A stretch of DNA of 64,000 nt, from contig NZ_PZKE01000002.1 of assembly GCF_003034965.1 (NCBI RefSeq), forward strand, positions 1 through 64,000, read 5' to 3'. The stretch is from Fuscovulum blasticum DSM 2131. Lineage in GTDB: Bacteria > Pseudomonadota > Alphaproteobacteria > Rhodobacterales > Rhodobacteraceae. The position numbers were made by a program, and so were the translations under genes. Under the pieces are notes generated by a model. It was not told the DNA's origin and ran no database searches. It saw only the letters and a list, made by a program, of their open reading frames with translations. Positions 25,448 through 59,849 of this stretch are shown here, one piece after another. Within the stretch, counting starts at the first letter, position 1; every line of letters begins with the position of its first letter.

Positions 25448-25462
25448 TGACTGTATTTGTCA
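25448..25462. promoter_or_regulatory. Inverted repeat TGAC-N7-GTCA, probable iron-regulator site (hmuS side)
   Basis: TGAC (25448-25451) and GTCA (25459-25462) flank TGTATTT, about 94 bases upstream of hmuS. The same layout occurs near hemP. Confidence 0.55.
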
Positions 25463-25555
25463 GGTATCTGCCACTCCCTCGGGCAGCCCTGGCGCCCCCG
25501 CGCCCCAGCCTGTGCCAGAGATGCGCGTCCGCCCCAGTCAAACGGAAGGATGCCC

Positions 25556-26593
25556 ATGGCCAAGCCCGGCCCCGATCAGATTCGCGCCCTGCGCGCCGAA
25601 ACCCCGAAAACCCGCGCCCGCGACTTTGCCACCCAGCTTGGCATTTCTGAAGCCGACCTTGTGGCAGCCCATCTGGGCCATGGCGCAACCGCCATCGAAG
25701 CCGATCCCGACCGGCTGATTCCCTGGGCCGGCCGCCTGGGCGATGTCATGGCGCTGACCCGCAACGAACATTGCGTGCATGAACGCCGCGGCCATTACTC
25801 GGACTATCGCACCGGCGCCTTTGCCGCGATGGTGCTGGACCCCGAGATCGACCTGCGGATCTTTGCCAAACACTGGGTCCATGCCTTCGCGGTGGAAGAA
25901 CCCGGCGAGGACGGGCCGAAGCGCAGCCTTCAGGTGTTCGATGCGGCGGGCGATGCCGTGCACAAGATCTGGCTCAAGCCCGAATCGAAGGGCGAACTCT
26001 TCGCCGATCTGATCGCCAACATGCGCCTGCCGGTGCAGGAACCGTCCCTTGCCCTGGCGCCCCGTGCCGTGGTGGAACCGGCGCGCGAACTGGCCGCCGG
26101 CGCCCCGGCGCTGCGCGATGCCTGGGACGCGATGACCGACACCCATCAGTTCCTCGGGCTGGTGAAAGAGCACAAGATGAACCGGTTGGGCGCCTATCGC
26201 GTGGCGGGTGCGCCCTATGTCCGGCGGCTTGCGCCCGAGGCGGTGACGCTGGTTCTGCAAGGCGCGGCCGAGCAGAAGGTTCCGGTGATGATCTTCGTCG
26301 GCAACCCCGGCTGCATCCAGATTCACGGCGGCCTGATCGAACGCATCGTGCCGATGGGCCCCTGGATCAACGTGATGGACCCCCGCTTCAACCTGCATCT
26401 GCGGGCCGACCGTCTGGCCGAGGTCTATCTGGTGTGGAAACCCACCCGCACCGGCGATGTCTACAGCGTCGAAGGCTTCGCCCCGGATGGCGAGCTGATC
26501 CTGCAGATCTTCGGCTACCGCAAGAACACCCCGCCCGAGCCGTGGATCGCGCTGACGGCCGCCCTGCCCCGGCTGGAAGAGGTGACGGCATGA
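25556..26593 (+). CDS. hmuS: Hemin-degrading factor HmuS
   Basis: A 345-residue cytosolic protein with two HemS/ChuX-type repeats; the N-terminal repeat shows WAGRLGDVMALTRNEHCVHE and the C-terminal one MIFVGNPGCIQIHGG and NLHLRADRLAEVYLVWKPT. It receives imported heme and degrades it or passes it on. The ATG at 25556 was chosen over 25550 because the GGAAGG ribosome site then has a 6-base spacing. The stop overlaps the hmuT start (ATGA). Confidence 0.93.
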   Translation: MAKPGPDQIRALRAETPKTRARDFATQLGISEADLVAAHLGHGATAIEADPDRLIPWAGRLGDVMALTRNEHCVHERRGHYSDYRTGAFAAMVLDPEIDLRIFAKHWVHAFAVEEPGEDGPKRSLQVFDAAGDAVHKIWLKPESKGELFADLIANMRLPVQEPSLALAPRAVVEPARELAAGAPALRDAWDAMTDTHQFLGLVKEHKMNRLGAYRVAGAPYVRRLAPEAVTLVLQGAAEQKVPVMIFVGNPGCIQIHGGLIERIVPMGPWINVMDPRFNLHLRADRLAEVYLVWKPTRTGDVYSVEGFAPDGELILQIFGYRKNTPPEPWIALTAALPRLEEVTA

Positions 26594-27435
26594 TCCGCCG
26601 CTCCGTGCTGGGTCTGGCGCTGGCGCTTGCCGCAGACCCTATCGCCGCCGAAGACGCCCCGCGGGTCATCTCGCTGGGCGGATCGGTGACGGAAATCGTG
26701 GTGGCACTTGGCGCCGGCGACCGGCTGGTCGCCCGCGACACCACCTCAACCTATCCGGCCAGCGTGGAAGCCCTGCCCGATGTGGGATATGTCCGCGCAC
26801 TGTCGGCCGAAGGGGTGCTGGCCCTGTCGCCCGACCTGATCCTGGCGGAAGACGGCGCCGGCCCGCCCGAGGCGGTGGACGTGTTGCAGGCCGCCGGCAT
26901 CGGCTATGTGAAGATCCCCGCCGCGACCACGCCCGAAGGGGTGATCGGCAAGATCACCGCCGTCGCCGCCGCGCTTGAAATGCCCGAGGCGGGCGCGAAA
27001 CTGGCCGCGCAGGTCAGCGCCGACATGGACAGGGTAGCCGCCGCGGTGGCGGGCGTGACCCAGCCGAAGCGCGTGCTCTTCGTGCTGTCGCTGCAAGGCG
27101 GCCGGGTGATGGCCGGCGGCGAAGGCAGCACCGCCGAGGGCATCATCGAACTGGCCGGCGGCGTGAATGCCGCCAGCGGCTTCCAGGGCTACAAGCCGAT
27201 GACGGATGAGGCGATCCTGACCGCCGCGCCGGATGTCATCCTGATGATGAACCGGCATGGCGATGATCCGGGCAGCAATGACGATGTGATGGCGCAGCCC
27301 GCCCTGTCGCAGACCCCCGCCGCCAGGGCCGGCGCGGTGGTGCGGATGGACGGGCTGCTGCTCCTGGGCTTTGGCCCGCGTCTGCCCGAAGCGGCGATGA
27401 CGCTGCACGACGCGCTTTATCCGGCCAAGGGGTAG
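26590..27435 (+). CDS. hmuT: Heme ABC transporter periplasmic binding protein
   Basis: A 281-residue class III binding protein with a signal peptide (to about residue 20, PIAAE) and the family blocks RVISLGGSVTEIVVALGAGD, DVGYVRALSAEGVLALSPDL and GYKPMTDEAILTAAPDVIL. It carries heme across the periplasm to HmuUV. Confidence 0.94.
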   Translation: MIRRSVLGLALALAADPIAAEDAPRVISLGGSVTEIVVALGAGDRLVARDTTSTYPASVEALPDVGYVRALSAEGVLALSPDLILAEDGAGPPEAVDVLQAAGIGYVKIPAATTPEGVIGKITAVAAALEMPEAGAKLAAQVSADMDRVAAAVAGVTQPKRVLFVLSLQGGRVMAGGEGSTAEGIIELAGGVNAASGFQGYKPMTDEAILTAAPDVILMMNRHGDDPGSNDDVMAQPALSQTPAARAGAVVRMDGLLLLGFGPRLPEAAMTLHDALYPAKG

Positions 27436-27439
27436 GACC

Positions 27440-28501
27440 ATGGTCGCCCTGTCGCCCGATCTGACCGGCCTGCGGACACCCGCGCTGCGCCGGTTCCTGA
27501 CGCCAGGGCTGGTGGCGCTGCTGGTCCTCGCCTCGCTCTGGTCGCTCAGCAGCGGCGCGGCGGGTCTGGGGCCGGGGCAGTTGCTGGCCGCCCTGACCGG
27601 CGATGGTCTTTCGGCCCGCGACGAGGTGGTTCTGTATCAGATCCGCCTGCCCCGGCTGGCCATGGGCATTGCCGTGGGCGCGGCGCTGGCCGTGTCGGGG
27701 GCGCTATTGCAGGGGCTGTTCCGCAACCCGCTGGCAGACCCCGGCATCGTGGGCGTGGGCGCAGGCGCGGGCCTGGGCGCGGTGCTGGCCATCGTGCTGG
27801 GCGGGCTGCTGCCCGCGGGCGTTCTGGCGGTGACAGGCAGCCATCTGGTGCCGCTGGCCGCCGCCTTTGGCGGCTGGGTGACAACGCTTCTGCTCTACCG
27901 CATCGCCACCGCAGGCGGACAGACCCGCGTGACGACGCTGCTTCTGGCCGGAATCGCGCTGGCCGCGCTGGCGGGCGCGGCAACGGGCGTGCTGGTCTAT
28001 CTGGCCGATGACCGGCAGTTGCGCGACCTGACCTTCTGGGGAATGGGCTCGCTGGCGGGCGCAACCTGGGGCAAACTGGCGGCGGCGCTGCCGCTGATCG
28101 CGCTGGTTCTGCTGATGATGCCCTTCCTGGCCCGCGCGCTGAACACGCTGGCCCTGGGGGAAGCGCAGGCCGCCCATATGGGCATCGACGTGCAACGGAT
28201 GAAGCGGCGCGCGATCCTTTCGGCGGCGGCGGCCACCGGGGCGGCGGTGGCGGTGTCGGGCGGCATCGGCTTTGTCGGCATCGTGGTGCCCCATCTGCTG
28301 CGGCAGGCGGACGGGCCGGACCACCGGCGCCTCCTGCCCCGCGCGGCGCTGCTGGGCGCGGCCCTGCTGGTGCTGGCCGACCTTCTGTCGCGCAGCATCG
28401 TCGCGCCCGCGGAACTGCCCATCGGGATCATAACCGCCCTTCTGGGCGCGCCGGTCTTCCTGTGGATTCTTCTCAGCCAGCCGTCGGCGGCCCGGGGGTA
28501 A
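27440..28501 (+). CDS. hmuU: Heme ABC transporter permease
   Basis: A 353-residue FecCD-family permease with about ten transmembrane helices. Motifs include LGPGQLLAAL near the N-terminus, RLPRLAMGIAVGAALAVSGA, LQGLFRNPLADPGIVGVGAG and GIGFVGIVVPHLLR. It forms the heme channel. Confidence 0.95.
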   Translation: MVALSPDLTGLRTPALRRFLTPGLVALLVLASLWSLSSGAAGLGPGQLLAALTGDGLSARDEVVLYQIRLPRLAMGIAVGAALAVSGALLQGLFRNPLADPGIVGVGAGAGLGAVLAIVLGGLLPAGVLAVTGSHLVPLAAAFGGWVTTLLLYRIATAGGQTRVTTLLLAGIALAALAGAATGVLVYLADDRQLRDLTFWGMGSLAGATWGKLAAALPLIALVLLMMPFLARALNTLALGEAQAAHMGIDVQRMKRRAILSAAAATGAAVAVSGGIGFVGIVVPHLLRQADGPDHRRLLPRAALLGAALLVLADLLSRSIVAPAELPIGIITALLGAPVFLWILLSQPSAARG

Positions 28502-28502
28502 C

Positions 28503-29282
28503 ATGCTGCAGATCGACGATCTGAAGGTCACGCTGGGCGGCCGCGACATCCTGCATGGCATCTCGCTTCAGGTGCGCCCCGGCGAGGTGGTGGCGATCTG
28601 CGGCCCGAACGGCGCGGGCAAAAGCACGCTTCTGCGCGCCGCCCTGGGCGAGGTTCCCGCGCAGGGCCGGGTCACGCTGAACGGGCAGGATCTGCGGCAG
28701 GGCAAGCCGCAGGCGCTGGCCCGGCTGCGGGCGGTGCTGCCGCAGGACACGCAGGCGGCCTTTCCGTTTACCGTGGCCGAAATCGTGGCCATGGGCCAGG
28801 ACGCCGGCGATTTCGCGCCGGAACCGGGGCTTGTCCGGCGGGCGCTGGCCGAGGTGGGACTGGACCATCTGGCCGATGCCAGCATCCAGACGCTCTCGGG
28901 CGGCGAACGGCAGCGGGCGCATCTGGCCCGCGCGCTGGCGCAGGTCTGGCAGCCGGTCGGCCCGCAGGGCGCGCGCTGGCTGTTTCTTGATGAACCCGTG
29001 GCCAGCCTTGACCTTGGCCACCAGTTGTTCGTGATGCGGCTGATGCGCCGCTATGCCGATGCCGGCGGCGGCGTGGTCGCGGTCATGCACGACCTGAACC
29101 TGACCGCAATGTTCGCCGACCGCATCGCCTTTGTGATCGGCGGCCGGATCGCCGCCTGCGGCCCGCCGGACGCGGTGCTGGACCCCGGCCTGCTGGAACG
29201 CGCCTATGGCTGCCGCATCGCCATGAACACCGCCCCGGCCTCGGGGCCCTGGTTCGTGCCGCAGGCCGCACAGGCGGGCTGA
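28503..29282 (+). CDS. hmuV: Heme ABC transporter ATP-binding protein
   Basis: A 259-residue ATPase with Walker A GPNGAGKST, signature LSGGERQR and Walker B LFLDEPVASLD. It powers heme import by HmuTU and starts 1 base after the hmuU stop. Confidence 0.95.
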   Translation: MLQIDDLKVTLGGRDILHGISLQVRPGEVVAICGPNGAGKSTLLRAALGEVPAQGRVTLNGQDLRQGKPQALARLRAVLPQDTQAAFPFTVAEIVAMGQDAGDFAPEPGLVRRALAEVGLDHLADASIQTLSGGERQRAHLARALAQVWQPVGPQGARWLFLDEPVASLDLGHQLFVMRLMRRYADAGGGVVAVMHDLNLTAMFADRIAFVIGGRIAACGPPDAVLDPGLLERAYGCRIAMNTAPASGPWFVPQAAQAG

Positions 29283-29325: not shown

Positions 29326-30330
29326 ATGTGTGCCACGATCCTGCCCCGTTCCGTGAAACCCGGCGTGCCGCCCACCCCGCGCCCCGAACGCCGCACCCGC
29401 AGCGAGCTGCGCGATGGCATGGTGGTGCCGCCGACCGGGATGGAGGTGATCGTCACCGATCACTGCAACATCGCCTGCCGGCAATGCAACCACGGTTCAC
29501 CCGTCCTGCCGAAATGGTGCGCCGACCCGGACGAAACCGGGCGCACCCTGGCCGCGCTGGCGCAAAGCTACCGGCCGGCCTTCCTGAAATACATCGGAGG
29601 GGAGCCGCTTCTGCACCCCGACCTGCCGGCGGTGATCCGGGCCGGCCGGGCCTCGGGCATCGCGCCGCATCACATGCTGGTCACCAATGGCCTGCTGCTG
29701 GACCGGATGCCGGCCAGCGTCTGGGGCCTGATCGACGAGATCGAGATTTCCCGCTATCCCGGCGCCGGGCTGGACAGCGCCCTTCTGGACCGGGCCCGCC
29801 ACAGGGCGGCGGCGCATGGCGTGCGCTTCACCCTGAACGATTACCCGATGTTCCGGCGCACCTTCACCCGCCGCGAAACCACCGATCCGGCGCTGGTGCA
29901 GGCGGTGTTCCGGGGCTGCAAGATCGCCAATGTCTGGGGCTGCCATGGCGTCTATCGCGGGGCCATCTACCGCTGCCCGCAGTCGATGTATGCGCTGACG
30001 CTGGCCGGGGCCGCAGGGTTTGACGGCCTGCCCATCGAACCCGGGCCAGCCTTCGCGGCGCGGCTTCTGGCCTTTCTGAACGGCGCCGAACCGCTGGCCT
30101 CCTGCCGCTACTGCATCGGCACGGCCGGGCGGAAGGAACCCCATGCGCTGCTGACCCGGCGCGACTGGCCGGCGGATCTGGACGAGCCCGCCGAACAGAT
30201 GATCGACCCGGCGGTGCTGGATCTGACGCTGCGCGAGGTGATCCCGGTGGATGACTGCAAGACCCCCGCCCGCCCCTCGCGCCCGGTGCGGCTGTGGCAA
30301 CGGCTGACCGGGCGGTCTGCGGCGCGGTAA
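29326..30330 (+). CDS. Radical SAM protein with C-terminal cysteine-rich (SPASM-like) region
   Basis: The 334-residue protein has the radical SAM motif C47-x3-C51-x2-C54 in VTDHCNIACRQCN, preceded by a basic tail, then a partial TIM-barrel with FLKYIGGEPLLHPDL. A C-terminal set of cysteines (FRGCKIANVWGCHG, YRCPQS, CRYCIG) suggests additional iron-sulfur binding as in SPASM/Twitch proteins. The substrate is unknown. It follows hmuV by 43 bases but has no known heme role; it converges on the nucleotidyltransferase of the PqqD/HprK-like operon, to which it may functionally belong. Confidence 0.85.
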   Translation: MCATILPRSVKPGVPPTPRPERRTRSELRDGMVVPPTGMEVIVTDHCNIACRQCNHGSPVLPKWCADPDETGRTLAALAQSYRPAFLKYIGGEPLLHPDLPAVIRAGRASGIAPHHMLVTNGLLLDRMPASVWGLIDEIEISRYPGAGLDSALLDRARHRAAAHGVRFTLNDYPMFRRTFTRRETTDPALVQAVFRGCKIANVWGCHGVYRGAIYRCPQSMYALTLAGAAGFDGLPIEPGPAFAARLLAFLNGAEPLASCRYCIGTAGRKEPHALLTRRDWPADLDEPAEQMIDPAVLDLTLREVIPVDDCKTPARPSRPVRLWQRLTGRSAAR

Positions 30331-30347
30331 CTTCGGCCTAGCCGAAG
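30331..30347. terminator. Bidirectional hairpin between radical SAM gene and nucleotidyltransferase operon
   Basis: CTTCGGC (30331-30337) and GCCGAAG (30341-30347) form a perfect stem with a 3-base loop that contains the TAG stop of the minus-strand gene. It can serve both convergent units. Confidence 0.6.
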
Positions 30348-31798
30348 GCCGCCCGCAACAGCCGGAACGGCAGGGCGCGGTATTTCGCCTGCCGCGCCGC
30401 GCTGTCGCCGCCATAGACCAGCCCGCCCGGACAGGATTGCAGGATCAGATCGTGGTCCGCCTCCGTCAGCCTGACCTGCACCCTGAGACGGACCCGCATC
30501 TCCGTCTCGGCCCGCGCGCGGGAATAGATGCGGAAGCGGGCGATGTGGCGGGTTGGGCTGTTCAGCTCCAGCTCAACCCGGCGCAGGGTGGCGGGCGCGG
30601 TGAAGGCCAGTTCCAGCGTCAGCCGGTGGCGGCCCGGTCCGGGGAACGGGATCGGCGCGGTCAGCCCGGCCCCCTGCCCGGCCTGTGCGCCCCGCCCCGC
30701 CCCGGCCTGTGCGCCCCGCCCCGGCCGGGCCAGCGCCAGCACCAGCGGCGGAGCATCGCCGCGCGGCGCGCGCTGGCGGCGTTGCGCAAGGCGCATCCAG
30801 ACCTGCCGCGCCCCGCGTTGCAGCGGGGTCAGATCATCCTCGGGCCGGGCCATCAAAAGCGCCCCCCGGGCCGCCAGCCACCCCGGATGCGGCAGCGCGG
30901 CCAGCCGCTCCAACAGCCCGGCGGGCAGCGGCAGGCCGATCTCCTGCCCCAGATAGCCCAGCCCGATCCGGGCCTGAAACGCCATGGCGCGGTCCTGCAC
31001 AATCGCCTCGACCAGCGTCCAGTCCAGCGCGGGATCGGCAATCAGCTCGGCCGCATCGACCAGCCAGTCGCTATGCGCATGGGCCGACCACGCGCCATGC
31101 GCCAGCGTGATCGCCAGCCGTTCCTCGGGGCGCGGAACCAGCACCGGCTGGCCAAAGAAATCGGCCGGCTGCGCCTGATCCCACAAGGCGGCATCGCGGG
31201 CGGGGTGGAAGTTCGGCCCGTGATAGATGCTGCGATGCAGGTCGATGTCGCCATCCCGCGCATCGTGAAAGTTGATGGCGCGGGCGGTCGGCGCCCGGGC
31301 CACGGCGCAAAGCGCGGTTTCGCCACGCGCCGTCTGCCAGCCTTCTGCGATCAGGATCTGCGCCGCCGCCGCCATATGTTCGGGGCGGACCAGCACATCC
31401 ACATCCTGATGCGCGCGCTGGCGCTGCGCGGCCGGGTTCACCGCCACCCGCGCCGCCCCCTTGAACAGCATCACCGGCACCCCGCCCTGCGCCAGCGCGC
31501 GCAGGATCGGCAGGTTGGCATGAACGCGCATCCGCGATTCCGTCCACAGCTTGCGCTGGATGCCCTTCAGGCGGGGATATTCCGCAAACCGCTCCAGCGC
31601 CGCGCCATGGCGTTCGGCGATGGCGGCCAGAAGGCGATGGTCGGCGAAAACGGCGGCATCCAGATCCTGCGCGGCCAGCCAGCGGGCAAAGTGGTCCAGC
31701 GCCGCCTCGGGCTGCGGCAGCAGGGCCGCCTTCAGCAGCAGGTCGCGCCCGCCCGAAGGCCAGGCCCAGCCGGGGTTGGGAAAGCGGCGGGCGGTCAT
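30338..31798 (-). CDS. Uncharacterised nucleotidyltransferase (NTP_transf_5 family)
   Basis: The 486-residue product matches the uncharacterised nucleotidyltransferase family PF14907. The core shows LFKGAA (residues 111-116), the metal-binding pair D132-V-D134 in AHQDVDVLV and a third acidic site D184-I-D186-L-H188, as expected for a two-metal nucleotidyl transfer. Homologues accompany HprK-like kinases and PqqD-like proteins, including some lasso-peptide loci. The C-terminal 120 residues after an Ala/Gly/Gln-rich linker form an unassigned beta-rich domain. Start at 31798 overlaps the stop of the preceding glycosyltransferase (ATGA). Confidence 0.82.
   Translation of the reverse strand: MTARRFPNPGWAWPSGGRDLLLKAALLPQPEAALDHFARWLAAQDLDAAVFADHRLLAAIAERHGAALERFAEYPRLKGIQRKLWTESRMRVHANLPILRALAQGGVPVMLFKGAARVAVNPAAQRQRAHQDVDVLVRPEHMAAAAQILIAEGWQTARGETALCAVARAPTARAINFHDARDGDIDLHRSIYHGPNFHPARDAALWDQAQPADFFGQPVLVPRPEERLAITLAHGAWSAHAHSDWLVDAAELIADPALDWTLVEAIVQDRAMAFQARIGLGYLGQEIGLPLPAGLLERLAALPHPGWLAARGALLMARPEDDLTPLQRGARQVWMRLAQRRQRAPRGDAPPLVLALARPGRGAQAGAGRGAQAGQGAGLTAPIPFPGPGRHRLTLELAFTAPATLRRVELELNSPTRHIARFRIYSRARAETEMRVRLRVQVRLTEADHDLILQSCPGGLVYGGDSAARQAKYRALPFRLLRAAFG
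30681..30723. repeat. 24-bp tandem repeat in the nucleotidyltransferase linker
   Basis: GCCTGTGCGCCCCGCCCCG occurs at 30681-30699 and again at 30705-30723, 24 bases apart, encoding repeats of RGAQAGxG. The repeat lies in the low-complexity linker and is in frame, so it may vary in length among strains. Confidence 0.75.
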
Positions 31799-32472
31799 GC
31801 GGTGCCCCCGTCCTGCCGGGCGCGCAGCATGGCGCGGCGCGCGGCCAGCAGATAGCCACGGTCCAGCGCGGGATCGCGGCCCGATGACAGGCTGCCCGGC
31901 CGCACCCGGCGCAGGGTCAGCGGTTCGGGCAGTTCCTCGATGGCAACGCCCTGCTCGCGCGCGCGGGCCAGCCAGTCCACCATGTCGCCCCGCCCGCCGG
32001 GCGGATCGAACAGCGGGCCAACGCGGGCAAAGACCGCAAGCGGAAACATCATGCTGGACCGCAGCAGCCCCGGCCTGACCGGCCCCAGCTCCCGCCCGCC
32101 CGCCGCATCGGCGCGGAACAGCCGCAGCGCCGTGCAAGAAATGGCCAGCTCCGGCAGTCGGGCCAGGTGGTCGCGTTGCCGCGCAGCCTTGTCGGGCAAC
32201 CACAGATCATCGGAATCGACCAGCGCCACCACCGGCTGGCCACAGGCCGCAAGGCCGGTGTTGGTGGCGACACCCACCCCGCGATTGTCCTGCCGGATCA
32301 TCCGGACCGCCGCGCCGAAGCCGGCGGCCACATCGGCGGTGGCATCGGTCGATCCGTCATCAACCACAATCACCTCGGCCGGCGCCCAGCCTTGCGCCAG
32401 AACCGACCCGATCGTTTCGGCCAGCGTTATGGCGGCGTTCCAGGCGGGGATCACCACGCTGTAGCCGGTCAT
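31795..32472 (-). CDS. Family 2 glycosyltransferase (second of pair)
   Basis: A 225-residue GT-A enzyme: SVVIPAWNAAITLAETIGSV at the N-terminus, IVVDDGSTDAT and the metal-binding LVDSDDLW. Donor and acceptor are unknown. It has no membrane anchor. Both ends overlap the neighbouring genes by 4 bases, so it is translated together with the kinase-like and nucleotidyltransferase genes. Confidence 0.88.
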   Translation of the reverse strand: MTGYSVVIPAWNAAITLAETIGSVLAQGWAPAEVIVVDDGSTDATADVAAGFGAAVRMIRQDNRGVGVATNTGLAACGQPVVALVDSDDLWLPDKAARQRDHLARLPELAISCTALRLFRADAAGGRELGPVRPGLLRSSMMFPLAVFARVGPLFDPPGGRGDMVDWLARAREQGVAIEELPEPLTLRRVRPGSLSSGRDPALDRGYLLAARRAMLRARQDGGTA

Positions 32473-33218
32473 GCGCTGCCCCCTTCCGCCGGTCGGGGTT
32501 GCAGGGCGAAATCGGGCATCGACCAGCCAAGCGAGGGGTCCGCGCGGCGGCGCTGCATACTGCGCATCAGCGCCCGGGCAAAGCCGCGCCGGTTCAGGTC
32601 GGTCTGGTTGGTGACATTGTCGGTATGACGTCGGTAATACAAAGATATGTCGTCATGCTGCACGAAAGCTGCACCCGTTTCGTACAGGCGAAACAGGTAA
32701 TCCGTATCCTCGCCATGGGTCATGTCGGTCGCGAAAGGGCCGATCCGGTCAATCAGCGCGCGGCGGTAAAGACCGCAGCCAAGCTGGATGCCATGCAGCG
32801 TGACCGTGCGCGCCCCGGCAGCGGGGCGCAGGGTTTCTGACGATATTTCATCAACATAGCACATGCGCCCATAGGTATACCCCGCCTGCGGCGCGGCGGT
32901 CAGGCGGGCAAGGTCATCGGCCAGACGACCCGCCGGGAACACATCGTCGGAATCCAGAAAGGTCACGAACCCCGCCTTCTCCGGCAAAGCCCCCAACCCC
33001 GCATTCCGTGCCGCCGAAACCCCTGAATTCCTTTGGAAAATCACCCGAACGCGCGGGTCCGCCCCAGCCGCCAGCACGGCAGCGGTCTCATCTGTCGAAC
33101 CGTCATCAACCACGATAACCGAAACTCCTCCCGGCACAGGTTGCGACAGAACGGACCGCAAAGCCTGCAACAAAAGGCCGGCCCGGTTGAAGGTGGGCAC
33201 GATCACCGCAACCGTCAT
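32469..33218 (-). CDS. Family 2 glycosyltransferase (first of pair)
   Basis: A 249-residue GT-A enzyme with VIVPTFNRAGLLLQALRSVL, VIVVDDGSTDETAAVL and FLDSDDVFPAGRL. It is related to, but clearly different from, the next glycosyltransferase (they share the GT2 core only). Its start overlaps the end of the HprK-like gene. Confidence 0.9.
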   Translation of the reverse strand: MTVAVIVPTFNRAGLLLQALRSVLSQPVPGGVSVIVVDDGSTDETAAVLAAGADPRVRVIFQRNSGVSAARNAGLGALPEKAGFVTFLDSDDVFPAGRLADDLARLTAAPQAGYTYGRMCYVDEISSETLRPAAGARTVTLHGIQLGCGLYRRALIDRIGPFATDMTHGEDTDYLFRLYETGAAFVQHDDISLYYRRHTDNVTNQTDLNRRGFARALMRSMQRRRADPSLGWSMPDFALQPRPAEGGSA

Positions 33219-34249
33219 ACCCCGCCCCGCCGGATGAAATCACAAATGGCCCCGGCAATCTCGGCCGGGTCGGTGCCCAGATCGACCGCATGGCAGGGCA
33301 GCGCCCGAACCACGGCGGCGGCCAGCGCAAAGGCGGCGGCCCGGTCGCCGGGAATCTGGCTGACACCGGACGGGGCCAGCGCCTGAAAGGCGGATTTCGC
33401 ATCAAGCGGGCGGAAGGTGGTGCGCGGGGCATGGGCCACACGCGGGCACAGCAGCGCCAGCGGGGTGATCTGCGGCACCAGCGCGGCGGGCGCGATCTCA
33501 TCCACCGTCAGTTGCAGCTTGCCCTGCCAGTTGGCTGCGCGCGGGGCCAGCGACAGCCCCAACCGGACAGCGCCGGTGGGGTCTTGCTTCAGGGTGCGGA
33601 AGACCGGGCGCAAGGCCAAGCCACCCTCCAGATCGGCCAGAACGTAGTCATCCCCCACGCTGGACAGCCCGTGCAGCAAGCCGGCCAGAACCGTGCCCGA
33701 CTTGCCGCTGCCGCCGGGACCGGCCAGCAGCACCCCTATCCCGCCAAAGGCCAGCGTCCCGGCATGGATCAGCCCCCGGCGCGGCCCAAGCACCTGCCAG
33801 TGCAGGAAATTTCGCAGCGGCGAGCCGGGTTCCCATGGCGGATAGCCGGTCGGGCCGCGCATGAATTGCAGCCCCCGCCCGGTGGCGCGATCAAAGGCCT
33901 GCCAGAAGCCACGGTCGGGATCATGCGCCAGCAGATAGGGCGTGCCGCGCAAGGCGGCCTCAACCTCGCGCTCCTGAAAATAAGGGGCGGCCCAGAGGGG
34001 ACCGGGCGCGTCCAGCAGCAGGAGTTGCGCGGGACGGGTGGCTGTGGCGGCGGGCTGGCAGATGCCGGTGCGCACCAGATCGGCATAGGCGGGCGCGGTG
34101 CCGCGACAGTCGAAGGCCGTCTCCTCGACCGTGAATCGGGTGATCGGGGCGGCGTTCTGCCAAAGGTTGCCGAACTGCGCGAACATCGCGGCAAGCCCTT
34201 GCGGCAAGGCGGTGGGGTCCAGCGCGACAGCGGCCCCGGCAAGCGTCAT
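33215..34249 (-). CDS. HprK-related kinase
   Basis: The 344-residue protein has a central P-loop G177-P-G-G-S-G-K183-S184 and a Walker-B-like SSVGDDYVLADL (Asp200/Asp201), the layout of HPr serine kinase/phosphorylase-type domains. It lacks the rest of HprK and belongs with the HprK-related kinases encoded next to PqqD-like proteins (the so-called HPr-rel-A group, from memory of family naming). Its target is unknown; no HPr or PTS gene is nearby. The ATG at 34249 overlaps the PqqD-like stop codon. Confidence 0.8.
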   Translation of the reverse strand: MTLAGAAVALDPTALPQGLAAMFAQFGNLWQNAAPITRFTVEETAFDCRGTAPAYADLVRTGICQPAATATRPAQLLLLDAPGPLWAAPYFQEREVEAALRGTPYLLAHDPDRGFWQAFDRATGRGLQFMRGPTGYPPWEPGSPLRNFLHWQVLGPRRGLIHAGTLAFGGIGVLLAGPGGSGKSGTVLAGLLHGLSSVGDDYVLADLEGGLALRPVFRTLKQDPTGAVRLGLSLAPRAANWQGKLQLTVDEIAPAALVPQITPLALLCPRVAHAPRTTFRPLDAKSAFQALAPSGVSQIPGDRAAAFALAAAVVRALPCHAVDLGTDPAEIAGAICDFIRRGGV

Positions 34250-34671
34250 CTGTCCACCTGATCCGGCGGCAGATGCGGCCATCCGGCCTGAAGATCGACA
34301 TCATGGATCGGGTCGGCGGCGATCAGGTCGGACAGTTCGCTGTGCGCCTCAAGCCGGGGCGCGGCGTCGGTGGGCAGGCGGAACCCTGCGGGCAACGCAG
34401 CTTCGGGGGCGTCAGGCGCTTCGACCAGCAACCCCGCCTGCACACATTCGGCGGCAAATCCGGCAATCCAGTCAGCCGGCGCCCCCGCATCTGCAAGCGA
34501 TGCCGTTTCCACGCCGGTGGACAGCGCGGCCCAAAGCGCCGAGGCGCTGGCGTTCAGGCCGAAATAGCGGCCTGTGCCCAGATCCAGCACAACCACTTCG
34601 CCGTCGAAGTCTTCGAAAACCACATCGTCACTGGAAATACGGTACTTCACGGCAATACCCTCCGTCGGCAA
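34246..34671 (-). CDS. PqqD-like protein with conserved C-terminal tail
   Basis: Residues 10-85 form a PqqD-type peptide-recognition (RRE) domain: YRISSDDVVFEDFDGEVVVL then GTGRYFGLNASASALWAAL. Such domains bind leader or substrate peptides for modifying enzymes. After it comes an unusual tail (residues 100-141) with DPIHDVD (120-126) and GWP (130-132), a motif that looks conserved in form and may contact the partner enzymes or even be a modification site. It is the first gene of the five-gene operon. No separate small precursor-peptide ORF was found within 100 bases upstream. Confidence 0.82.
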   Translation of the reverse strand: MPTEGIAVKYRISSDDVVFEDFDGEVVVLDLGTGRYFGLNASASALWAALSTGVETASLADAGAPADWIAGFAAECVQAGLLVEAPDAPEAALPAGFRLPTDAAPRLEAHSELSDLIAADPIHDVDLQAGWPHLPPDQVDR

Positions 34672-34768
34672 CCGGACCTGGCGGCCCCGGGATCAAGGGC
34701 AGCCTAAGCTCAGGCTCAGATAGGCAATATGTTGCCGATCCTGACCGCGCCGGCAAGGGGCGCGTCAG
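34672..34768. promoter_or_regulatory. Intergenic region between RND pump end and PqqD-like gene
   Basis: Three inverted repeats crowd this short gap: AGCCT/AGGCT (34701-34716), GGCAA/TTGCC with a 4-base spacer (34723-34736) and a stem of 10 pairs with one bulge (34741-34768) that covers the RND stop codon and may terminate the pump transcript. The middle palindrome lies about 52-65 bases before the PqqD-like start, a good position for an operator. Confidence 0.55.
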
Positions 34769-56124: not shown

Positions 56125-56316
56125 ACAGCTTGCGGACAGTGGCCTTTGATACCCCCGTTCCGGTGCCCCGCAAGGGGCGAAGAGGGAAGCCGGTGAAACC
56201 CCGGCGCTGCCCCCGCAACTGTGAGCGGCGAGTCCCTGCCAAGATGCCACGGGCGCCCTGCGCGCCGGGAAGGCTGGCAGACCGACGATGACCCGCAAGC
56301 CAGGAGACCTGCCGGA
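56125..56316 (+). ncRNA. Cobalamin riboswitch 1
   Basis: The aptamer landmarks are present in order: GAGGGAAGCCGGTGAAACCC near 56184-56204, the B12 core GCTGCCCCCGCAACTGT (56207-56223), GGGAAGGC (56268-56275) and the closing GCCAGGAGACCTGCC (56299-56313). It controls the cysteine-rich protein gene downstream. Confidence 0.95.
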
Positions 56317-56345
56317 ACCGCGAACCGATGCCGGGCGGCGGGCCC

Positions 56346-59544: not shown

Positions 59545-59664
59545 GGATGCGTCCGATCCTCAAGGGCACCCCTATTCGCAACCTGCGGCGGAAAGGCGGT
59601 TGACATGCCGCGGCGGTTATGGCCGGTAAAGGGCATCATCGGTCCCTTGCCGGGCATCATCGCG

Positions 59665-59820
59665 CGGCGAGGGGGAGAGAGGGAATACGGTGCGGCCCGC
59701 AGGGGCCAATTCCGTGGCTGCCCCCGCAACTGTAAGCGGAGAGCGACGCCGAACACGCCACTGGGCCAATCGCCCGGGAAGGCCGGCCGAGCCAAGACCC
59801 GCGAGCCAGGAGACCTGCCG
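59665..59820 (+). ncRNA. Cobalamin riboswitch 2
   Basis: The aptamer core is seen as GAGAGGGAATACGGTGCGG, GGCTGCCCCCGCAACTGTAA (59717-59736) and GCCAGGAGACCTGCC (59805-59819). It precedes the cobalt transporter operon, so transport is repressed when B12 is plentiful. Confidence 0.95.
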
Positions 59821-59829
59821 GCGAGGCAT

Positions 59830-59849
59830 GGCGAAGAGCGATCTTCGCC
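59830..59849 (+). promoter_or_regulatory. Hairpin after riboswitch 2
   Basis: GGCGAAG (59830-59836) and CTTCGCC (59843-59849) form a perfect 7-bp stem with a 6-base loop between the aptamer and the first gene. No T-run follows; it may be part of the expression platform. Confidence 0.45.

Follow-up and report, generated by a model that had tools for sequence, protein, structure and literature searches.

The 64,000-nucleotide stretch of Fuscovulum blasticum DSM 2131 analyzed here (contig NZ_PZKE01000002.1, positions 1 to 64,000; the window) carries on its minus strand a five-gene operon whose first product, a PqqD-like protein, ends in a tail that is conserved across bacterial phyla and tied to genes for family 2 glycosyltransferases (GT2). 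Our best reading is that the operon encodes a self-presenting module resembling a glycosylated ribosomally synthesized and posttranslationally modified peptide (RiPP) system and related to the phosphorylated lasso peptides and the linear polyphosphorylated peptides (LPPs). In this peptide-tailoring module, a RiPP recognition element (RRE), a leader, and a core would reside in one protein, with the tail as substrate, and we give this reading a probability of about 0.43. It suggests an undescribed route to a sugar-decorated peptide or to a glycan built on a protein. Positions follow the forward-strand numbering of the window, and “window protein” and “window locus” denote the copies found there. 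Lengths are in amino acids (aa).

34246..34650, minus strand: pqqD, PqqD-like RRE protein with a conserved C-terminal tail (134 aa from GTG 34650; 141 aa from TTG 34671)
33215..34249, minus strand: hprK, HprK-like P-loop kinase, 344 aa (residues invariant in relatives; PF07475 at 0.012, below its cut-off)
32469..33218, minus strand: GT2a, family 2 glycosyltransferase, 249 aa (PF00535, 2.4e-25; DSDD in the sequence)
31795..32472, minus strand: GT2b, second family 2 glycosyltransferase, 225 aa (PF00535, 2e-25; DSDD in the sequence)
30338..31798, minus strand: NTP_transf_5 (NTP5) nucleotidyltransferase-like protein, 486 aa (PF14907, 2.5e-25)

An earlier reading made from the letters alone (the sequence-only reading) had described five genes on one strand joined by ATGA overlaps, and all four internal junctions are indeed ATGA. 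Such junctions alone are ordinary in compact operons; it is the conservation of the gene set that makes the association more than chance and that bears out the earlier view of one functional unit. The pqqD gene had been drawn to TTG 34671, but GTG 34650 is the more likely start because GGAGGG can be read seven bases upstream of it.

An RRE with a conserved tail

The window PqqD-like protein has the RRE fold of three strands followed by three helices: it matches PF05402 above the cut-off (E = 2.7e-6), and the top Foldseek hits of its AlphaFold2 (AF2) model (predicted local distance difference test [pLDDT], 87.6) are TbiB1 and TfuB1, RREs solved together with leader peptides. Relatives were collected from one genome per species with a PqqD alignment; the pattern [AL]DPIHD[VI]D matched in 185 stretches. 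A PqqD relative is encoded in 127 of them, and the related loci are the best 80 of these 127, near-duplicate sets (Mesorhizobium; L059 and L060) included. A profile of 81 PqqD proteins (the 80 relatives and the window protein) matches TbiB1 (5v1u; E = 8.5e-18), TfuB1, and two other PqqD-family chains, and the NCBIfam model for Bacillus-type lasso PqqD proteins matches 63 of the 81 at an E value of 0.001.

Behind the RRE domain, and in fixed register with it, these proteins carry a leader-like segment followed by D[LM]xxLLxxDPIHDVDxxGWP. The window protein has the following parts.

34342..34368, minus strand: leader-like segment DAAPRLEAH, residues 95-103, equivalent of [FYW]xxPx[LVI]xx[YFH] in relatives, with Asp in place of the aromatic residue
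34276..34314, minus strand: core-like tail DPIHDVDLQAGWP, residues 113-125, of low AF2 confidence and probably mobile

Counted from the D (position 0) of DPIHD, the 81 proteins have an aromatic residue at −18 in 43 cases (Phe in 37, Tyr in 3, Trp in 3), Pro at −15 in 62, a hydrophobic residue at −13 in 80, Tyr, Phe, or His at −10 in 80, Asp, Glu, or Asn at −8 in all 81, and Leu or Met at −4 in 80; GWP follows the DPIHD motif in 79. Some tail positions rank among the best conserved of the whole PqqD protein. Among 52 nonredundant proteins the aromatic residue is found in 31, Pro in 41, and the hydrophobic residue in 51, while the linker preceding the leader-like segment, taken as a comparison, is 3.5% aromatic and 12.5% Pro.

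Invariance of DPIHDVD was rejected as an effect of ascertainment, since the genome scan pattern was itself [AL]DPIHD[VI]D. Fifteen tails found by RRE profile all have Asp at 0; His at +3 is kept in 12 and GWP in 12. In the leader-like segment of these 15 (13 counted computationally, L208 and L210 by eye), position −18 is aromatic in 9 (Tyr in 6, Phe in 3), position −15 is Pro in 10, and position −13 is hydrophobic in all. DPPLP occurs in three of these tails, and other variants are DPVHETS, DIVHDTD, and DPIHEVS. In the three (L206, L207, and L212), LDPPLP replaces DPIHDVD and GWP is absent; YxxPxL and the GT2 and NTP5 neighbors are kept.

The leader-like segment resembles a published recognition signature. 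According to PMC13381572, lasso-type discrete RREs bind leaders with [Y/W]xxPx[L/V/I/F/A]. With Phe counted, the signature stands in cis in 41 of the 81 proteins; it is degenerate in the window protein, which retains Pro98, Leu100, and His103. The AF2 model of the window protein, built on 81 sequences, predicts a strand at residues 100-103, with a mean pLDDT of 95 for residues 91-100, 73 for 101-110, and 54 to 61 beyond. For the L113 protein, which carries WxxPxL (61 sequences), a strand is predicted at residues 114-116, with a pLDDT of 90 for residues 101-120 and ∼62 beyond; the two alignments overlap in most sequences, and the models are not independent of each other. We infer that the predicted strand is docked in cis in the RRE cleft, where its partner strand would lie, and that the core part is mobile.

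Conserved gene set and active-site residues

The 80 loci span Alpha- and Betaproteobacteria, Chloroflexi, Cyanobacteria, Nitrospirota, Gemmatimonadetes, Bacteroidetes, Firmicutes, Ignavibacteriae, Acidobacteria, Actinobacteria, Verrucomicrobia (Spartobacteria), Spirochaetales, and others. By the names on the database entries, the module is thus present in a dozen or more bacterial phyla; many entries are metagenome bins, and single assignments may be wrong. In the host's family, some kinase match occurs in 79 of 198 genomes, and besides the window genome only four (G089, G012, G100, and G007) exceed 60 bits; in each of these four, PqqD has a DPIHD[VI]D tail, which in G100 ends in GRL instead of GWP. 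Tailed RREs were also found in 8 of 384 other genomes sampled from the host's class and in 5 of 397 other genomes sampled from its phylum.

Hidden Markov models built from clusters of the same 80 loci called GT2 genes in 78 (with at least two same-strand copies in 68), HprK in 73, NTP5 of any type in 65, and all three in 61, and PqqD-HprK-GT2-GT2-NTP5 is a recurrent gene order. The scattering of homologues that the sequence-only reading had named as the outcome that would speak against it is therefore not what we observed. Of the seven loci without an HprK call, two have fused genes (L089 and L091), one has HprK within a long open reading frame (ORF) (L059), two lie at contig ends (L098 and L105), and two lack HprK (L050 and L114). 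The fusions join HprK-GT2-GT2 in a single ORF in the order seen in the window (L089:4660-7227 and L091:14067-16664; 855 and 865 aa). The long ORF of L059 was not counted as a fusion, as the near-identical L060 has separate genes there. Pairwise distances among RRE, HprK, GT2, and NTP5 correlate (Mantel r, 0.74 to 0.92; 0 of 999 permutations each; n = 40 to 71), a correlation much of which shared ancestry alone could produce.

Pfam cut-offs are passed by PqqD, both Glycos_transf_2 proteins, and NTP_transf_5. The window kinase does not pass (Hpr_kinase_C); its assignment rests on His, Lys, Asp, and Asp residues that are invariant in relatives and on weak matches to the NCBIfam models TIGR04352 and TIGR00679. 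With the window protein counted, H162, K183, and D201 are each kept in 68 of 68 proteins and D200 in 67 of 68. The same His-Lys-Asp-Asp set is described for lasso kinases (PMC9266682). In the NTP_transf_5 family, K113, G114, R128, D132, D134, D186, and H188 are each kept in 49 to 54 of 54 proteins, the window protein again included, and these residues probably include the active site. Loss of catalytic residues, which would have spoken against the earlier reading, is thus not seen in either enzyme. In the NTP_transf_5 protein, the last ∼217 residues (30338-30991, minus strand) fall outside the Pfam match, yet align with the two closest relatives. When the nucleotidyltransferase and the kinase were searched against PDB sequences, no match was found at an E value of 0.1; in plasmids, the kinase found one distant cyanobacterial kinase and the nucleotidyltransferase a partial match on 14 Deinococcus plasmids.

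The neighbors of the module were surveyed in 136 of 149 listed proteins encoded on the same strand within 4 kb (13 were dropped, being long ones or near-duplicates). The commonest families are group 1 glycosyltransferases (10), polysaccharide pyruvyltransferases (4), and epimerases (3), and sulfotransferase-type genes occur in 4 loci. Such neighbors in relatives, like the GT2 genes themselves, would fit an ordinary polysaccharide locus with a vestigial RRE, where PqqD, kinase, and nucleotidyltransferase have sugars as their substrates. We regard this as very unlikely: parts of the tail are among the best-conserved PqqD positions, and the surroundings of the window operon (a radical SAM gene, genes for heme uptake, and an RND pump) are not those of a polysaccharide cluster.

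The tail marks loci with glycosyltransferase genes

As a control, loci were found by RRE profile rather than by their neighbors and were extended by 6 kb in both directions as far as the contig reached. Fifteen tailed loci (13 genomes) were compared with 20 of 45 untailed RRE loci, the tail being read by eye; the untailed set is 20 of the 24 from a phylum search and includes several close relatives. A same-strand GT2 gene lies within 6 kb in 15 of 15 tailed loci versus 2 of 20 untailed loci (Fisher P = 4e-8, with loci taken as independent), and NTP5 in 9 of 15 versus 2 of 20 (P = 0.003). HprK does not differ significantly (12 of 15 versus 10 of 20; P = 0.09), and same-strand ABC genes are no commoner with the tail (3 of 15 versus 8 of 20), so an exporter was rejected as a mark of the tailed system. 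These counts indicate that the tail marks a GT2-bearing system, while kinase and ABC genes are common to untailed RREs too. The earlier suggestion of the PqqD tail as a candidate docking or modification site is strengthened by this link and by the conservation of the tail. Of the related proposal that the system phosphorylates, nucleotidylates, and/or glycosylates a target, one part did not hold in general: 27 of the 81 proteins, that of the window included, have no Ser or Thr from DPIHD to the C terminus, and Ser/Thr modification of the core was rejected as a general mechanism; it is the glycosyltransferases, not the kinase, that track the tail. From −18 onward, only 5 of the 81 lack Ser and Thr.

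The same observations could be explained by a tailed RRE that is an unmodified adaptor. Its tail would dock the glycosyltransferases, along with the kinase and nucleotidyltransferase, for joint action on a different molecule, for example a glycan, a lipid-linked sugar, or a cell-surface polymer, and the leader-like segment would keep the RRE closed or be displaced by a client. We consider such a scaffold a real if somewhat doubtful possibility and the chief alternative to our best reading. The high conservation of the tail, its lack of Ser and Thr in a third of the proteins, and its tie to GT2 genes are as expected of a docking motif, and the polysaccharide-type neighbors and the lack of a lasso protease at the loci tested agree with it. 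A docking tail would leave the RRE-recognition-like signature in cis unexplained, however, and the tails of L068 and L117 contain WP more than once, as in repeated cores.

Search for a precursor, a protease, and other partners

No separate short precursor gene shared among the loci was found. Within 5 kb of PqqD, the 80 loci and the window together contain 667 intergenic ORFs of 20 to 110 aa, and these form no family beyond close relatives; no cluster unites more than 5 loci, and these are almost without exception from Mesorhizobium or from near-identical genomes. That search left out ORFs overlapping called genes, and a second one covered same-strand ORFs up to 300 bases upstream: none of these 214 is common beyond close relatives, the largest cluster (7 loci) being mostly Mesorhizobium. 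Free-standing tail-like ORFs were not seen in the 80 loci, the window, or 35 further regions, four candidates being tailed RREs by eye. A lineage-specific or distant precursor is possible. The sequence-only reading had noted that no precursor was visible; this stands for a separate gene near the loci, but a leader-like and core-like peptide is probably fused to PqqD itself.

A precursor could instead be encoded elsewhere in the genome or by a small unannotated ORF, with the tail as an autoinhibitory leader mimic that the true leader displaces. RREs of this fold, including TbiB1 and TfuB1, do bind leaders in trans, and the 114 bases between 34650 and the end of the RND pump gene contain a 42-codon same-strand ORF from TTG 34756 (34628-34756, minus strand) that overlaps the pqqD start and whose beginning is covered by a predicted hairpin. 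Upstream of the other 80 pqqD genes, this ORF is without a relative, no second PF05402 protein was found in the host genome, and a leader mimic would not need the DPIHDVDxxGWP part. Together with the outcome of the two ORF searches, these points make a separate precursor of this kind unlikely in our view.

The lasso B2 protease family (PF13471), sought in 30 of the 80 genomes, gave 7 hits above the cut-off in 6 genomes, none of them at the locus; at L104, L058, L080, and L076, where the position of the PF13471 match could coincide with the locus, the frame is closed by stops. Neither an asparagine-synthetase-like family nor a signal-peptidase family (LppS, SpI-like) is among the 25 listed of the 127 Pfam families matched by the 136 same-strand neighbors, and no dedicated search was made for either. 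An ABC-type match occurs in 35 of the 80 loci (same strand and within 8 kb in 23) and is missing at the window locus. The earlier remark that neither protease nor exporter is visible thus applies to lasso-type proteases at the loci tested, but as to exporters it describes the window locus and not its relatives in general.

In the open-license PMC literature, the DPIHDVD motif was not found, nor were the combination of PqqD, HprK, and nucleotidyltransferase, the terms HprK-related kinase, HPr-rel-A, and PqqD_rel, or an RRE/precursor fusion, which does not establish their absence in print. PqqD with HPr kinase and glycosyltransferase led to ruminal lasso clusters, and RiPP, HprK, glycosyltransferase, and NTP transferase, taken three together, led to the LPPs.

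Proposed mechanism

In our proposal, the PqqD-like domain is an RRE, into whose cleft the leader-like segment would fold back in cis as an extra strand. So docked, this segment would present the mobile core-like tail DPIHDVDxxGWP to the operon enzymes. The two small GT2 enzymes would attach a sugar to the tail or start a glycan there, and the HprK-like kinase and NTP_transf_5 may contribute a phosphate plus another hexose or a nucleotidyl group, like their relatives on lasso peptides. An ABC exporter in some lineages and the radical SAM enzyme in that of the window may also take part.

For these relatives, PMC9266682 describes phosphorylation and glycosylation of a lasso peptide by PsmK and PsmN; LppK, PadeK, and PsmK phosphorylate Ser, and PsmN adds a hexose at the phosphate (PMC9266682 and PMC13381572). 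With no Ser or Thr in 27 of 81 cores, a universal acceptor would be Asp, His, Trp, or the C terminus, or the kinase would act elsewhere. A more specific form of the proposal can be put forward only tentatively: a glycosylated RiPP-like class with RRE, leader, and core in a single polypeptide, whose tail is held by its own RRE and is modified on Asp, His, or Trp of DPIHDVDxxGWP, rather than on Ser or Thr, or primed there with a glycan, by GT2 together with the peptide kinase and the PF14907 transferase.

Several observations weigh against a module that modifies its own tail. The published leader signature has Tyr or Trp, while the commonest aromatic residue here is Phe, with Tyr or Trp at −18 in only 6 of the 81 proteins (the strict Tyr/Trp-x-x-Pro form likewise in 6); in the window protein (Asp95) and in many alphaproteobacterial members the aromatic residue is missing altogether. 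The predicted strand of the window protein sits where AF2 confidence drops. The Ser phosphorylation known for these kinases is not generally applicable to cores of this kind. HprK and ABC genes do not distinguish tailed from untailed loci, and of the 80 related loci 7 gave no HprK call and 15 no NTP5 call (in one of the latter, NTP5 is within the long ORF of L059). No protease for product release was found, and the 42-codon ORF lies upstream of pqqD on the same strand. Finally, conservation of the tail to this degree in so many phyla suggests a docking motif or a cofactor precursor more than a natural-product core. The predominance of Phe and the failure of ABC genes to track the tail, in particular, weaken the self-presenting module and strengthen the scaffold.

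Radical SAM gene and other neighbors

The operon is faced by a further gene, which the sequence-only reading had described as a radical SAM gene with extra cysteines, tail to tail with the operon across a 7-base gap.

29326..30330, plus strand: radical SAM protein, CxxxCxxC and six further invariant Cys, a lineage-specific partner

This description was confirmed. The ORF ends at 30330 and that of the nucleotidyltransferase at 30338, leaving 7 bases between the facing stop codons; a perfect inverted repeat (cttcggc-cta-gccgaag, 30331-30347) fills this gap, its loop being the nucleotidyltransferase stop codon. CxxxCxxC and the six further Cys are invariant in four homologues. SPASM-type radical SAM proteins have CxxxCxxC and about seven auxiliary-cluster Cys. 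No family model matches above its cut-off (Radical_SAM Pfam, 2.4e-5, 25 bits versus 29.5). A homologue is present in only 3 of the 80 related loci, and the gene was rejected as a core member. At an E value of 1e-20, homologues occur in 3 of the 198 genomes of the host's family, the window genome counted, all with a tailed module nearby, yet G100 and G007 have the tailed module without one. The gene is thus linked but optional, a lineage-specific extra. Upstream of it (25457-29282, plus strand) lie genes for a HemS-type protein, a periplasmic binding protein, a FecCD permease, and a heme-type ABC ATPase, the last ending 43 bases before the radical SAM gene.

Two neighbor families recur in related loci. 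The first, in tailed loci of Bacillota type and one of Spirochaetales, carries SGGVDS or SGGADS, presumably a PP-loop-like motif, in 6 of 10 members.

L110:10437-11615, L100:10420-11595, L115:5524-6693, L108:11106-15813, and L105:10441-11607: SGGVDS-type neighbor family

The gene directly follows the tailed RRE in several loci and has four tandem copies in L108; the L110 protein matched no Pfam or NCBIfam family. Such a protein could activate a carboxylate of the tail. The second family, whose members start ...LLCRPRGGFNDAMVQ..., is present at L046:8811-9914 and in L040, L041, L042, L044, and L054; the L046 protein has no Pfam or NCBIfam match. Rfam and tRNA scans of the window gave nothing beyond two cobalamin riboswitches 3.3 kb apart (56144-56330 and 59623-59836, plus strand), both distant from the operon.

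Comparison with known systems

Of the PF05402 proteins surveyed in PMC12710340, 21% are PqqD-like proteins that are longer than a bare RRE and have no other Pfam domain, a group that the paper names as an opportunity to explore. For one set of such proteins the anatomy can now be described, together with a testable rule: segments resembling a leader and a core lie in cis, and GT2 genes lie beside them. If the proposed reading is correct, the class would escape searches built around a separate small gene for the precursor, and the module may provide a way into the peptide- or protein-primed assembly of glycans in many phyla.

The closest systems are those of LPPs and of phosphorylated lasso peptides. 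LPP loci of Bacillota share a discrete RRE, an HprK-like kinase, an NTP transferase, an MsbA-like transporter, and a glycosyltransferase-rich, polysaccharide-type setting, and LppK phosphorylates Ser of the LPP core (PMC13381572). They differ in having a separate precursor, LppA, and an SpI-like peptidase; in the module described here, the RRE itself carries the leader-like motif, the searches revealed no precursor common to the loci, and the partners seen most constantly are GT2 genes. The paeninodin and pseudomycoidin systems likewise have a B1-type RRE (TbiB1 being the closest to ours), an HprK-like kinase with His-Lys-Asp-Asp, and a nucleotidyltransferase (PMC9266682). In contrast, the RRE described here is tailed, GT2 genes are present, and no lasso B2 protease was found at the loci tested. 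The pseudomycoidin enzyme PsmN is one that we take to be a PF14907 member, and the tail gives a hint of where the acceptor of PF14907-type transferases might be sought. PsmN itself is unsettled between glycosyl- and nucleotidyltransferase (PMC9266682).

Fusions of an RRE to a PF00535-type glycosyltransferase also tie the two physically together and suggest glycosylated RiPPs (PMC7470986 and PMC12710340); there the RRE is fused to the enzyme, whereas here it is separate from the enzymes and has a leader-like tail. The HPr-rel-A models (TIGR04352/TIGR04353) describe, by their names, an HprK-related kinase with a PqqD relative, but the window kinase scores 25.4 bits against a TIGR04352 cut-off of 200, and TIGR04353 matches only 2 of the 81 tailed RREs at an E value of 0.001. 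The mycofactocin cluster comprises a PqqD-like chaperone, the GT2 enzyme MftF, and a radical SAM gene. The window locus recalls it in having a PqqD-like protein, a GT2 (GT2a) whose best NCBIfam match is MftF, and an adjoining radical SAM gene; it differs in that family scores are far below the cut-off (75 bits versus 280 for MftF) and in that so few related loci share the radical SAM gene.

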